A stretch of DNA of 64,000 nucleotides from Sulfitobacter sediminilitoris (lineage in GTDB: Bacteria; Pseudomonadota; Alphaproteobacteria; Rhodobacterales; Rhodobacteraceae), in assembly GCF_010667575.1 (NCBI RefSeq), contig NZ_JAABNT010000003.1, forward strand, positions 372,001 to 436,000, given 5' to 3'. Under the pieces are notes generated by a model that worked only from the letters and a program-made list of their open reading frames with translations, had not been told where the DNA came from and made no database searches. Position numbers and translations under genes: made by a program. This document shows positions 20,600 to 42,709 of the stretch, piece by piece (position 1 is the first letter of the stretch; every line of letters begins with the position of its first letter).

Positions 20600-20839
20600 A
20601 TGGCGTCTGACAGACAGAACCTTCAGGATGCGTTCCTGAACCATGTACGCAAGACCAAGGTACCGGTCACAATCTTCCTGATCAACGGCGTCAAACTTCA
20701 AGGTGTGATCACCTGGTTTGACAACTTCTGCGTCCTGCTGCGCCGCGATGGACAATCACAGCTTGTCTACAAGCATGCCATTTCGACCATCATGCCAAGC
20801 CAGCCGATCAGCCTTTATGAGGGCGAAGACGCTTCTTGA
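20600..20839 (+). CDS. hfq: RNA chaperone Hfq
   Basis: A 79-aa Sm-like hexameric RNA chaperone that pairs small RNAs with mRNAs. Starting at the ATG at 20600 gives [14 protein letters not shown], the standard Hfq N-terminus; the Sm1 region ([16 protein letters not shown]) and Sm2 motif ('VYKHAIST') are intact. The Shine-Dalgarno is weak (GAAGTGAGA), so leader structure may matter for its translation. Its stop TGA overlaps the TTG start of hflX. Confidence 0.98.
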
Positions 20840-38758: not shown

Positions 38759-40582
38759 TCAGTTTTGTGACGCGTCCCACCACCAGACTTCGGGCATGAA
38801 GTTCGGCCCGTCGCCATAGATTGGCAGGGTGTCGGGGTATTTCATCTCGGCCCGGTGGGCGATCAGGCCCTCGTTGAATTGCCAGAAGGGGATCACGTAG
38901 CGCCCGGCGGTCAAGATGCGGTCAAGTGCGCGGGTCGCGGCAGTGAAATCTTCTGAAGTTTTGGCGGCGAGCATCGCATTGATCATCGAATCCACAGCCG
39001 GGCTTTGAACGCCCATGAGGTTGCGGGATCCTTGCTGCGTCGCGGCCTCTGACCCCCAGTAGAAGCGCTGTTCATTGCCCGGAGACAGAGACAGCGCGCG
39101 CCGGAAATGGGCGATGTCGAAATCGAATGAGTTGATGCGTTCCGTCAACTGCGCCTCGTCCACCGTCTCGACCCGCGCATCGATCCCCAGACGAGTCAGG
39201 GCCTGGACGTAAATCTCTGCTATCTTGCCGTGTTCGGCGTTGCCTTTGGACAGGAGGATGGAAAACGCAACAGGCTTGCCATCTGCATCCCGCATGGCAC
39301 CGCCTTCGGCGGAAAAGCCTGCGGCTTGAAATTGCTTCATTGCCCCCCGGATGCCAGCCCGGTTTCGGGCCGAGCCATCCGCGACAGGCAGATCGTATCC
39401 ATCCAGCGCGCCGGGCGGCAGGGTATCGGCAAAGGGCTCAAGCAAGGCCGCCACAGGGGCGGGGGCGGGCCCGTGGTCCATGGCAAGAATGGAGTTGGAA
39501 AAATACGATGTGATACGGGGCAGGGCGCCGCCGGTCAGCGTCTCGTTGATATATTCGAAGTTGAAGGCGTGGATCAGCGCATCGCGCACGCGCCAATCAT
39601 CGAACGGCGCCCGCCGGGTGTTCATCACAAAGCCCGTCATGCCGGATGGTTTCTGATGCGGGAAGGATGATTTCACGATCTCGCCACGGGTGATGGCCGG
39701 AAAGTCGTATTGTGTGGCCCAGGTTTCGGCGTTGAATTCGCGCACGGCTGAAATCTCGCCTGCCTTGAAGGCTTCAAACAGAACGTTTCCATCGCCGTAA
39801 AAGTCGATCTTGATCTGATCGAAGTTATGCGTGCCCCTGCGGAAGGGCACATTGGCCCCCCAGTAATCGGAGTTGCGTGTCAGCGTCACCTGCCGGCCCG
39901 CATCGAAATCCGAGATCACGTAAGGGCCGGTCCCGAGCGGGATGTCTGCAAGCGCGGCGTTGGCGAAATCGCGGCCTTCCCATTGCGATTTGCTGAGGAT
40001 TGGGCGCATGCCCGCGAGCAGGGCCAGCTCACGATTCTCGGTGTTGAATGTGAACCTAACAGTGCGCGGACCGGTGGCCTCAATACGCTCAATCTGGTTG
40101 TAAAGTCCGTGGTAGCGCGGGTGGCCTTCGGTGCCCAACAGTTCAAACGAAAAGATAGCGTCGTCGACCGTGACGGGTGTTCCGTCGGAAAATCGTGCCT
40201 CTGGCCTGAGGGTGAACGCAACCCAGGCGCGGTCCTCGGGAAGCTCAACCGATTCGGCCAATAGACCGTAAAGGGTGAAGGGTTCGTCCCAGGAACGGCC
40301 CATCAGGCTTTCGTGGGTAAAGTGCCTGAGCTGCCAGGGAACGGTGCCTTTGCGCACGAATGGATTAAGACTGTCATAGCCGCCAGTGTTGCCCAACGTG
40401 ATCTGCCCGCCTTTCGGCGCGTCCGGGTTCACATAGGGCAGGGACACAAAATCCGGTGGCAAAGCAGGTTCCCCATACATAGATAGCCCATGCATCGGCT
40501 CTGCCAGCGCGGCGGCGGCTGAGAGAATCAGTGAAGAAGTCGCCGCAACGCCCCGCAGTCTCTGGAAAAAATCTATCGCCAT
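38759..40582 (-). CDS. extracellular solute-binding protein, YejA/peptide ABC type
   Basis: A 607-aa periplasmic binding protein of family 5. It has a signal peptide (cleavage near ALAEP, residues 25-29), then 'SMYGEPALPPDF' and 'YVNPDAPKGGQITLGNTGGYDSLNPF', which are typical of the YejA / microcin C-like branch. The late 'DFDIAHFRRALSLSPGNEQ' and 'WQFNEGLIAHR' segments agree. The permease and ATPase genes (yejBEF) are not on either side, so this is an orphan binding protein in this window. It may be co-transcribed with arsC and the aquaporin downstream. Confidence 0.9.
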   Translation of the reverse strand: MAIDFFQRLRGVAATSSLILSAAAALAEPMHGLSMYGEPALPPDFVSLPYVNPDAPKGGQITLGNTGGYDSLNPFVRKGTVPWQLRHFTHESLMGRSWDEPFTLYGLLAESVELPEDRAWVAFTLRPEARFSDGTPVTVDDAIFSFELLGTEGHPRYHGLYNQIERIEATGPRTVRFTFNTENRELALLAGMRPILSKSQWEGRDFANAALADIPLGTGPYVISDFDAGRQVTLTRNSDYWGANVPFRRGTHNFDQIKIDFYGDGNVLFEAFKAGEISAVREFNAETWATQYDFPAITRGEIVKSSFPHQKPSGMTGFVMNTRRAPFDDWRVRDALIHAFNFEYINETLTGGALPRITSYFSNSILAMDHGPAPAPVAALLEPFADTLPPGALDGYDLPVADGSARNRAGIRGAMKQFQAAGFSAEGGAMRDADGKPVAFSILLSKGNAEHGKIAEIYVQALTRLGIDARVETVDEAQLTERINSFDFDIAHFRRALSLSPGNEQRFYWGSEAATQQGSRNLMGVQSPAVDSMINAMLAAKTSEDFTAATRALDRILTAGRYVIPFWQFNEGLIAHRAEMKYPDTLPIYGDGPNFMPEVWWWDASQN

Positions 40583-40661
40583 TTCCGCAACAGTCCTGCA
40601 CCGCCCTTGTTTTGTTGGGCCTATGGTTAATTGGGGTTAGCGTCCAGTTCAAACTTTATAC

Positions 40662-40690
40662 TTGGCGTTTGGCCGTTGATCTCTTATAAA
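40662..40690 (+). promoter_or_regulatory. sigma-70-type promoter of a candidate small RNA
   Basis: TTGGCG (40662-40667) and TATAAA (40685-40690) are separated by exactly 17 nt. The -10 matches 5 of 6 and the -35 4 of 6 consensus bases. An A at 40697, seven bases past the -10 box, is a natural start point. No coding frame follows before the terminator at 40745. Confidence 0.6.
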
Positions 40691-40696
40691 GGTGTC

Positions 40697-40773
40697 ACTG
40701 CTCGATAGGTTTCTTGCCTGTATGAAACCTGCCTCAATAACTTAACGCCAGCTTCGTGCTGGCGTTTTTTTTT
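40697..40773 (+). ncRNA. candidate small RNA (about 75 nt, two hairpins)
   Basis: This lies between a good promoter and a near-perfect intrinsic terminator with no open reading frame inside. The 5' part forms a perfect 7-bp stem, AGGTTTC (40707-40713) with GAAACCT (40724-40730), around a 10-nt loop TTGCCTGTAT. A short single-stranded linker (GCCTCAATAACTTA) follows, then the terminator hairpin. This is the layout of an Hfq-dependent trans-acting sRNA, with a long U-tail. I cannot match it to a named family. The next plus-strand gene starts 104 nt later, so it is not simply a leader of that gene. Confidence 0.62.
40745..40773 (+). terminator. strong intrinsic terminator
   Basis: ACGCCAGC (40745-40752) pairs perfectly with GCTGGCGT (40758-40765) around a TTCGT loop, followed by nine Ts. 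No plus-strand protein gene lies upstream within 3 kb, so it must end an RNA that starts in the intergenic region. Confidence 0.9.
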
Positions 40774-40877
40774 GCCCGCGTGGCATGGTCTTGCAACCAA
40801 TGCTGCGTTTCATGCGTTCCCTTCTGCAAAGCAGCACGGCATGATGCGCCTGCAGCAAATACCCAGAGGAGACAGAC

Positions 40878-41663
40878 ATGGCTTTCACGATCGATCTTTC
40901 AGGCAAGACAGCCATCATCACCGGATCAAACTCGGGCATTGGCCTTGGGATCGCATGGGAGCTGGCGCGCGCGGGCGCGGATGTGGTGTTGAACTCATTC
41001 ACCGATGACGACGAAGACCACGCGCTGGCCAAGGAAATCGCGGATGAGACGGGAACCAACGCCCGCTACATCAAGGCGGACATGTCCAAGGGCGATGAGT
41101 GTCGCCAGTTGATCAAGGACGCGGGACGCTGCGATATTCTGGTCAATAATGCGGGCATTCAGCATGTCGCCGCCATTCCGGAGTTCCCGGTTGAAAAATG
41201 GGATGCGATCATTGCGATCAATATGTCTTCGGCATTTCATACGACAGCTGTTGCCTTGCCGATGATGCGCAAGACAGGCTGGGGACGGGTGATCAATATC
41301 TCTTCCGCGCATGGTTTGACCGCGTCGCCCTTCAAAGCGGCCTATATCGCGGCAAAGCACGGGGTTGTCGGGCTGACCAAAACAACGGCGCTGGAAACCG
41401 CCAAAGAGGACATCACGTGCAATGCCATTTGTCCGGGTTACGTGCTGACGCCAATTGTGGAAAAGCAGATCCCCGACACGATGAAGGAATACGATATGAG
41501 CCGTGAGGAAGTCATTGAGAACGTCATGCTCACGCGGCAGCCGTCCAAGGAATTTGCAACCGTTGAACAGATTGGCGGCACGACGACTTTCCTATGCTCT
41601 GATGCGGCAGCCCAGATCACCGGCACCACGATCAGCGTCGATGGCGGCTGGACCGCGCTTTGA
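40878..41663 (+). CDS. bdhA: 3-hydroxybutyrate dehydrogenase (SDR family)
   Basis: A 261-aa short-chain dehydrogenase. It has the 'TGSNSGIGLGIA' cofactor loop, 'NNAGIQHVAAIPEFP', catalytic Ser in 'ISSAHGL' and 'AYIAAKHG' (Tyr-x3-Lys). 'SPFKAAYIAAKHGVVGLTK' and 'PGYVLTPIVEKQIPD' are characteristic of D-3-hydroxybutyrate dehydrogenases, which oxidise the monomer of polyhydroxybutyrate to acetoacetate. AGAGGAGA precedes the ATG. It is followed directly by a patatin gene, a pairing common in relatives. Confidence 0.92.
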   Translation: MAFTIDLSGKTAIITGSNSGIGLGIAWELARAGADVVLNSFTDDDEDHALAKEIADETGTNARYIKADMSKGDECRQLIKDAGRCDILVNNAGIQHVAAIPEFPVEKWDAIIAINMSSAFHTTAVALPMMRKTGWGRVINISSAHGLTASPFKAAYIAAKHGVVGLTKTTALETAKEDITCNAICPGYVLTPIVEKQIPDTMKEYDMSREEVIENVMLTRQPSKEFATVEQIGGTTTFLCSDAAAQITGTTISVDGGWTAL

Positions 41664-41674
41664 GGCGCGGGGCG

Positions 41675-42709
41675 ATGGGGAAGAAAAAGAAGATCAACCT
41701 CGCCTTGCAGGGTGGCGGTGCACATGGCGCGTTTACCTGGGGCGTGCTGGACCGTCTGCTGCAAGAGGATGACATTGAGGTCTGCGGCATTTCCGGGACC
41801 TCGGCAGGGGCGCTGAATGGCGCTGCCCTCAAGGCAGGATGGGTGACGGGCGGGGCCGAAGGTGCCCGTCAGAATCTGGATTGGCTTTGGGAACAGATCG
41901 CGGGGGTCAGTGATCTGCGGATGTCGGCATGGATGGCACCATTTGGCATTGGTGCGTTAAGCCAGGCGATTGAGTACAGCTGGCCTGTCGCCTTTGCTGA
42001 CGCCGTTTCTAATGTGACCTCGCCTTATAATTTCGGTCCGTTCTATCGCAATCCGCTGACTGATATCGTTGACAAGTTCGACTATGACCGGGTTTGCAAC
42101 GGTGTGGCACCGTTGCTCTACATTTGTGCGACGCGGGTTCGAAACGGTAAAATCAAGATCTTTTCAGGAAACGAGATTTCACCCGATGCAATCATGGCCT
42201 CGGCCTGTTTGCCGACGATCTTCAAGGCGGTCGAATTGCACGATCCTGAAACCGGGCGGGCCGAGGCGTTCTGGGACGGCGGTTACACAGGCAACCCCGC
42301 GCTTTTTCCGCTTTTCAACCAAGAGCTGCCTGATGATCTGGTGATCATCAACATCAACCCACTGGAGCGCGACGATCTGCCGATCACCCCAAAACAGATC
42401 CAGAACCGGATTAATGAAATCAGCTTTAACTCAAGCCTGTTGCGCGAATTGCGTGCGATTGAGTTCGTACAACGTCTGCTGGATCAGGGCGCCCTGGAAG
42501 AGGGCCGGATGAGCCGGGTCCGCGTGCATATGATTGCTGACGATGCGCTTATGGAGCAGCTTTCGGTTGCCACCAAGATGGTGCCAAACCCCGTGGTTAT
42601 TGCGACGCTCAAGGACGCCGGGCAGCGTGCGGCAGAGCAGTTCCTCAACGATCACAAATCAAAGATTGGCAAGGAAAGCAGTGTCGATCTGCGCGAGATG
42701 TTCGCATAG
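41675..42709 (+). CDS. patatin-like phospholipase
   Basis: A 344-aa hydrolase with the patatin oxyanion loop 'LQGGGAHGAFTWG', the nucleophile elbow 'GISGTSAGAL' (GxSxG) and the catalytic Asp in 'WDGGYTGNPAL'. I start at the ATG at 41675 with GAGG upstream; a TTG at 41660 overlapping the bdhA stop is the alternative. Given its coupling to 3-hydroxybutyrate dehydrogenase it may act on storage-polymer or membrane lipids, but this is inference. No signal peptide is seen. Confidence 0.9.
   Translation: MGKKKKINLALQGGGAHGAFTWGVLDRLLQEDDIEVCGISGTSAGALNGAALKAGWVTGGAEGARQNLDWLWEQIAGVSDLRMSAWMAPFGIGALSQAIEYSWPVAFADAVSNVTSPYNFGPFYRNPLTDIVDKFDYDRVCNGVAPLLYICATRVRNGKIKIFSGNEISPDAIMASACLPTIFKAVELHDPETGRAEAFWDGGYTGNPALFPLFNQELPDDLVIININPLERDDLPITPKQIQNRINEISFNSSLLRELRAIEFVQRLLDQGALEEGRMSRVRVHMIADDALMEQLSVATKMVPNPVVIATLKDAGQRAAEQFLNDHKSKIGKESSVDLREMFA

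Follow-up and report, generated by a model that had tools for sequence, protein, structure and literature searches.

The 295-nt gap between a minus-strand and a plus-strand gene in the window (the whole stretch of 64,000 nucleotides of Sulfitobacter sediminilitoris DNA that was analysed) raises the question of whether it encodes a small RNA, to which described RNA this would correspond, and with which partners it could interact. Judged from its sequence and its conservation in relatives, the unit in the gap looks like a genuine small-RNA (sRNA) gene.

Architecture of the locus

The features of the locus and of the genes around it, in window coordinates, are the following.

20600-20839, plus strand: hfq, the likely chaperone gene (Pfam Hfq, 115.9 bits)
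38759-40582, minus strand: divergent gene for an ABC-transporter substrate-binding protein (SBP), with oligopeptide/nickel-type SBP matches, each under its own cut-off
40583-40877: gene-free gap of 295 nt, with the minus-strand SBP gene on one side and the plus-strand gene 40878-41663 on the other
40647-40661, plus strand: conserved box just 5' of the -35, family consensus TTTCAAACTTTTAGC, in the window GTTCAAACTTTATAC (column conservation, 156 loci)
40662-40690, plus strand: promoter, TTGGCG (40662-40667), 17 nt, TATAAA (40685-40690), read off the sequence and its conservation
40697-40768, plus strand: probable StsR-type sRNA, predicted at 72 nt from the onset of conservation and the published StsR length, at most 77 nt with the entire T run
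40697-40706, plus strand: single-stranded 5' end ACTGCTCGAT, nearly invariant (98-100% conserved; mostly unpaired in the fold, unpaired in the centroid)
40707-40730, plus strand: hairpin 1, AGGTTTC (40707-40713) and GAAACCT (40724-40730) around the 10-nt loop TTGCCTGTAT, from sequence and fold
40715-40732, plus strand: 18-nt segment (nt 19-36), perfectly complementary to the genome's own mraZ/dcw leader, from the genome self-search
40731-40743, plus strand: 13-nt linker GCCTCAATAACTT, its first five letters invariant (1.00 each) and the remainder varying in base and length
40744-40773, plus strand: Rho-independent terminator from the terminator scan, stem 40744-40752 with 40758-40766, TTCGT loop, T run 40765-40773
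40878-41663, plus strand: 3-hydroxybutyrate dehydrogenase gene, bdhA (TIGR01963, 362 bits vs a cut-off of 307)

Rereading the sequence bore out what the initial annotation had placed here, namely the TTGGCG-17-TATAAA promoter in a gap of 295 nt, the 7-bp hairpin with its 10-nt loop and the linker after it, a terminator with a nine-T tail, and hfq encoded in the same window. The terminator stem, given there as 8 bp, counts nine pairs, or eight if the outer A-T pair is excluded, and two of the nine T also belong to the stem. The fold of 40697-40773 reaches -24.8 kcal/mol (z -4.48), and none of 200 shuffled sequences folded equally well. A pattern scan found no strict sigma-70 promoter at the sRNA locus; the promoter letters are kept in relatives (TT 0.99-1.00, G 0.96, TAT 0.98-0.99; column conservation over 156 loci), and by analogy with StsR we infer a promoter of the RpoH type, from which the predicted sRNA would be transcribed in the source organism. 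The box TTTCAAACTTTTAGC upstream of the -35 is conserved to roughly the same degree as the -10 and may be an activator site or an UP-like element.

Conservation and structure in relatives

Of the 149 family genomes searched by BLAST with 40685-40775, 146 contain the sRNA, among them 131 of the 132 near-complete ones; the three genomes without a match are 73-90% complete. It was likewise found by BLAST in every one of 196 genomes sampled from the order, each of which bears the same family label, and a class-wide covariance-model search of 289 genomes gave five matches, four inside the family and one outside it (G577, 30.2 bits). The latter match, from another family (L412:1501-1594), carries a CCUCCCU linker and has an alphaR8-like look, so that it may be an alphaR8 RNA or may hint at a remote link in layout. 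An exact 22-nt hairpin pattern occurred in at least 118 stretches of named genome contigs, whose titles give genera or groups of the Rhodobacterales and in some cases just Alphaproteobacteria.

For comparison at the level of the locus, 157 loci were assembled, 30 from the 36 genus matches, 125 from the 146 family matches and two from Paracoccus records, the own genome and one genus genome among the family matches being tallied under the genus. The alignment of 156 rows holds all of these except L018, and a further sRNA alignment leaves out one row, from L156. In the 156 loci the commonest base has a mean frequency of 0.997 in 40697-40735, 0.88 in the -10 and 0.85 in the terminator, against 0.34-0.56 in the flanks and the promoter spacer, and the 39 nt of 40697-40735 are identical in 148 of 156. 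The same mean is 0.89 over 40650-40665, which includes the first -35 letters, vs 0.50-0.52 on either side. Because conservation begins abruptly at 40697, 7 nt past the -10, this position is the likely start of the RNA.

The initial annotation had named compensatory changes in both stems as something that would support it. Among 30 diverse sequences this held for the terminator, in which six of nine pairs change on both sides and 95.1% of cells are paired; hairpin 1 is too invariant to give a covariation signal, since six of its seven pairs never vary and a single sequence disrupts the seventh; its helix is compatible with the alignment, not proven by covariation. A coding reading was rejected: a frame of seven codons that opens with the ATG at 40722 is not kept, its last part varying in length and stop.

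Neighbouring genes and independence from bdhA

In 151 of 157 loci the SBP gene lies next to the sRNA on its upstream side, in divergent orientation, and a 3-hydroxybutyrate dehydrogenase gene lies downstream of the sRNA in 132 of 157. The same order of SBP gene, sRNA and bdhA is found on a 1.46-Mb Paracoccus plasmid, and Cereibacter flavus, from the genus in which R. sphaeroides is now placed, has an sRNA whose first 41 nt are identical and which is flanked by the same two genes (74.5% and 54.1% protein identity). Within the window, a frame at 41660-42709 overlaps bdhA at its end and has a very weak phospholipase-type match (19.7 bits vs a cut-off of 400).

Such a constant neighbour raises the possibility that the unit is a 5' leader or attenuator of bdhA, whose terminator would control read-through, given that bdhA follows on the same strand in those 132 loci at a median of 111.5 nt past the aligned segment (range 12-1627). 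Nevertheless, in the other 25 loci no bdhA was found in the downstream sequence retrieved, and 23 of these retain both the SBP neighbour and the RNA; conservation, moreover, drops to 0.34 straight after the terminator, and the target match described below lies in trans, in the mraZ leader. The leader reading was thus rejected as very improbable, and since the RNA persists where bdhA was not found, it is most likely an independent gene.

Complementarity to the mraZ/dcw leader

When the own genome was searched with 40697-40756, the best match after the gene itself was an 18-nt perfect one to nt 19-36 (E 0.02), which sits in the leader of mraZ in the opposite sense, where the mRNA reads GCAGGUUUCAUACAGGCA. 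The MraZ protein of this genome was confirmed by Pfam (66.7 bits), and the predicted duplex of the site with StsR nt 1-47 amounts to -46.3 kcal/mol. The initial annotation had the right class, a trans-acting and probably Hfq-dependent sRNA, and the loop and linker that it had named as candidate seeds both overlap the complementary segment nt 19-36.

The complement is widely kept in the family. The 18-mer has a match within three mismatches in 99 of 100 family genomes, a count that includes the sRNA gene itself. The position relative to mraZ was checked in 36 genomes, that is, the own genome and 35 of the 100 searched for which sites were listed; 26 of the 35 have a second site with at most two mismatches (30 sites), eight have 3-mismatch sites only (11 sites), and G149 has none. 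In 30 of the 36 genomes (24 of 26, 5 of 8 and 0 of 1 in these groups, plus the own genome), the sense strand of mraZ carries a complementary site 183-264 nt ahead of where the MraZ alignment begins, and the remaining six have no mraZ-leader site within three mismatches. By site, 25 of 31 with at most two mismatches are in mraZ leaders and six are away from mraZ; among the 3-mismatch sites of the eight genomes without a better one, 5 of 11 are in mraZ leaders.

A mraZ leader of 268 nt is described as containing UpsM, a 206-nt RNA special to Rhodobacteraceae (PMC5089854). The pattern scan called no UpsM terminator in the own mraZ leader. Besides the StsR site, this leader (L414) contains, closer to mraZ, a long GC hairpin with GTTT after it, as UpsM would have.

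Identity of the RNA

That the RNA could not be assigned to a known family, as the initial annotation had it, is true for Rfam, in which the gap had no match at the gathering threshold, and not for the literature, in which StsR fits it by target, size, range and promoter type. StsR was reportedly defined in a NAR paper of 2021. In R. sphaeroides, StsR, formerly RSs0827, is described as a 72-nt, Hfq-associated RNA that depends on RpoHI/RpoHII and is plentiful in stationary phase, with UpsM, the dcw 5' UTR and rpoE mRNA as partners (PMC8307010), and its binding is described as leading to RNase E cleavage, less dcw mRNA and slower growth (PMC11354728). RSs0827 is also given as rising late in singlet-oxygen stress and rising on iron limitation (PMC3688512, PMC3413700).

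The RNA of the window shares with StsR a length of about 72 nt as predicted here, a Rho-independent terminator, a promoter compatible with RpoH control, the complement of the mraZ/dcw leader and an hfq gene in the genome. Because target, size, range and promoter type agree with those published, we named it StsR, and 40697 to about 40768 is very probably the orthologue of StsR. The two RNAs differ in source, one being from R. sphaeroides and the other from the genus Sulfitobacter, and they were matched by description, not letter by letter with the published sequence. A different, uncharacterised trans-acting sRNA that has the dcw-leader target in common with StsR is for that reason conceivable, and the 5' end of the sRNA is a further nearly invariant part outside the dcw-site complement. 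We nevertheless consider a second such RNA unlikely: size, range and target equal those of StsR, most genomes hold one match, and in the own genome nt 1-60 has, at E<=10, only two sites of 14-22 nt besides the mraZ leader, both inside or overlapping long open frames.

If the RNA is StsR, a route from stress to cell division could be envisaged for Sulfitobacter. The putative RpoH-type promoter would make an RNA of 72-77 nt in stress or stationary phase, as in R. sphaeroides, and this RNA would pair with the mraZ/dcw leader. As published for R. sphaeroides, pairing with the leader and with UpsM, itself an sRNA that ends within the leader, might then lead to cleavage by RNase E and a fall in dcw mRNA, upon which growth and division would slow; Hfq, a published associate of StsR whose gene is in the window, would probably assist. 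RpoH control, Hfq binding, the RNase E step and the effect on division are thus carried over to this organism from the literature.

A member of the alphaR8/MmgR group (Rfam suhB, RF00519), a regulator of PHB granules, could also be imagined beside a PHB-related gene, and RF00519 is indeed the best sub-threshold Rfam match of the gap, covering the full model with 22.2 bits. The layout is similar as well, since alphaR8 RNAs such as MmgR of S. meliloti and SisA-D of Caulobacter are short sRNAs with a 5' hairpin, a single-stranded C-rich stretch and a terminator. The score, however, falls short of the gathering score of 41, and the present sRNA lacks the UUUCCUCCCU core that is said in PMC12559287 to be common to all alphaR8 RNAs. 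A better match exists elsewhere in the same genome, and the alphaR8 identity was rejected as extremely improbable. The better match, a probable alphaR8/MmgR sRNA, lies at G000:C78:6393-6475 (L032:1501-1583, minus strand), with 38.8 bits vs the cut-off of 41 and the core TTTCCTCCCT. SorY (RF02651) scored 16.8 bits in the gap vs a gathering score of 111.

Identification as StsR gives a name to a previously orphan sRNA for which Rfam offered no family at threshold, and it turns an RNA studied in one species in the papers cited into one that nearly all genomes of the family carry in almost unchanged form, with a widely kept site in the dcw leader. In other members of the group, 'Intergenic 134' of P. 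denitrificans (84 nt; PMC5107571) is plausible as the same RNA; the BLAST hits listed for it in that source include Streptomyces. The trans sRNAs described for R. pomeroyi (PMC4809877) provide a further set of candidates for a counterpart. Four forms of the core letters of the sRNA had no occurrence in the literature text searched.

A complementary element in microvirus-type genomes

The link between StsR, the dcw leader and UpsM is already known, and the novel lead of this analysis is an element in phage genomes. A search of annotated phages with the sRNA gave one weak match (E 0.02), in MH572320 (L287), deposited as Microviridae. Among 2.9 million viral contigs, 21 contained the pattern GTTATTGAACAGG-N(6-24)-CCTATCGAGCAG and six contained TTTCATATAGGT-N(2-8)-TTCCTATYGRGCAG. 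Together with MH572320 and L343 these make 29 element genomes of 3.7-6.0 kb, 28 of them from IMG/VR. Examples of the StsR-complementary element, in coordinates of each genome, are the following.

L301:321-363, longest-ORF strand
L302:836-878, longest-ORF strand
L314:4257-4299, longest-ORF strand
L336:2791-2820, longest-ORF strand

The element spans 30-46 nt and complements StsR starting at the 5' end of the RNA, in two blocks that a mismatched middle part separates. In all 29 genomes the complement is obtained when the element is read on the strand with the longest ORF; L319 and L479 are among the few genomes with long ORFs also on the other strand. Complementarity extends to StsR nt 2, and the next phage base is T, which pairs with nt 1, in 18 of 29 genomes, A in nine and C in two; the edge at nt 2 is partly set by the search, because the patterns ended there. 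By eye, a GC-rich hairpin directly follows the element in many genomes, and the gene in front of it differs.

As to the nature of these genomes, the capsid protein is PHROG 514 in L301 (767.6 bits) and in L314 (74.6 bits); a replication-initiation match was obtained for L302 and a weak match to a pilot protein for L316, and the largest ORFs of L302 and L305 had no match in PHROGs or Pfam. The remaining genomes were classed as microvirus-type from their size and their protein links. Two groups, of 24 and 5 genomes, can be distinguished among the 29, with no protein link between them at the level used, and identity reaches 97.5% in the closest pair.

Duplexes with StsR nt 1-47, computed for 20 of the 29 genomes, were predicted at -44.3 to -58.7 kcal/mol. 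In the same 20 genomes, the best competing site on the strand of the element gave -26.8 to -43.1 and the best site on the opposite strand -30.6 to -39.8 kcal/mol, and shuffled sequences had means of -13.1 to -17.9, with -35.4 kcal/mol as the lowest single shuffle. The fixed orientation and the repeated occurrence of the element speak for pairing as such. Some changes in the phage elements preserve wobble pairs; they are too few, and the pattern was fitted to them, so that they constitute no proof.

The element is not a general feature of microviruses, since 66 of the 74 capsid relatives of L301 that were examined (80 kept of 546 found) do not carry it; a fuzzy scan marked seven, L301 included, and L343 was added by eye. 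Host range would be a natural reason for this patchy distribution.

The DNA packaged by microviruses is the coding strand, and on balance we lean towards the view that microviruses of Rhodobacterales evolved a docking site for the StsR of their hosts on this strand, hence in both mRNA and packaged DNA. Such a site could act as a sponge that lifts the brake of StsR on division and growth in starved hosts, or it could recruit StsR and RNase E to phage mRNA. Retroviral DNA synthesis is primed by a tRNA, and the element could similarly be a primer-binding site, at which a host RNA starts the synthesis of the second DNA strand. Pressure from many partners would help to explain why nt 1-39 of StsR are nearly frozen. 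A model for the sponge is CrfA of Caulobacter, described as an RNA that sequesters a host sRNA by pairing with it (PMC12559287), whereas the microvirus element sits in a phage genome and would pair in two blocks. If the element acts by pairing, single-stranded DNA phages would make use of a host sRNA through which stress is coupled to cell division, and this would be a new kind of RNA contact between phage and host; in the open-licence literature, no report of a StsR-complementary microvirus element was found.

Copies of the sRNA in the sense orientation occur on other viral contigs, namely L294:1052-1137 (minus strand, 68.7 bits), L295:2784-2857 (minus strand, 68.3 bits) and L311:780-879 (plus strand, 48.7 bits). 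On L294 the copy immediately follows a tRNA-Met gene (1140-1216), and L311 carries a terminase gene.
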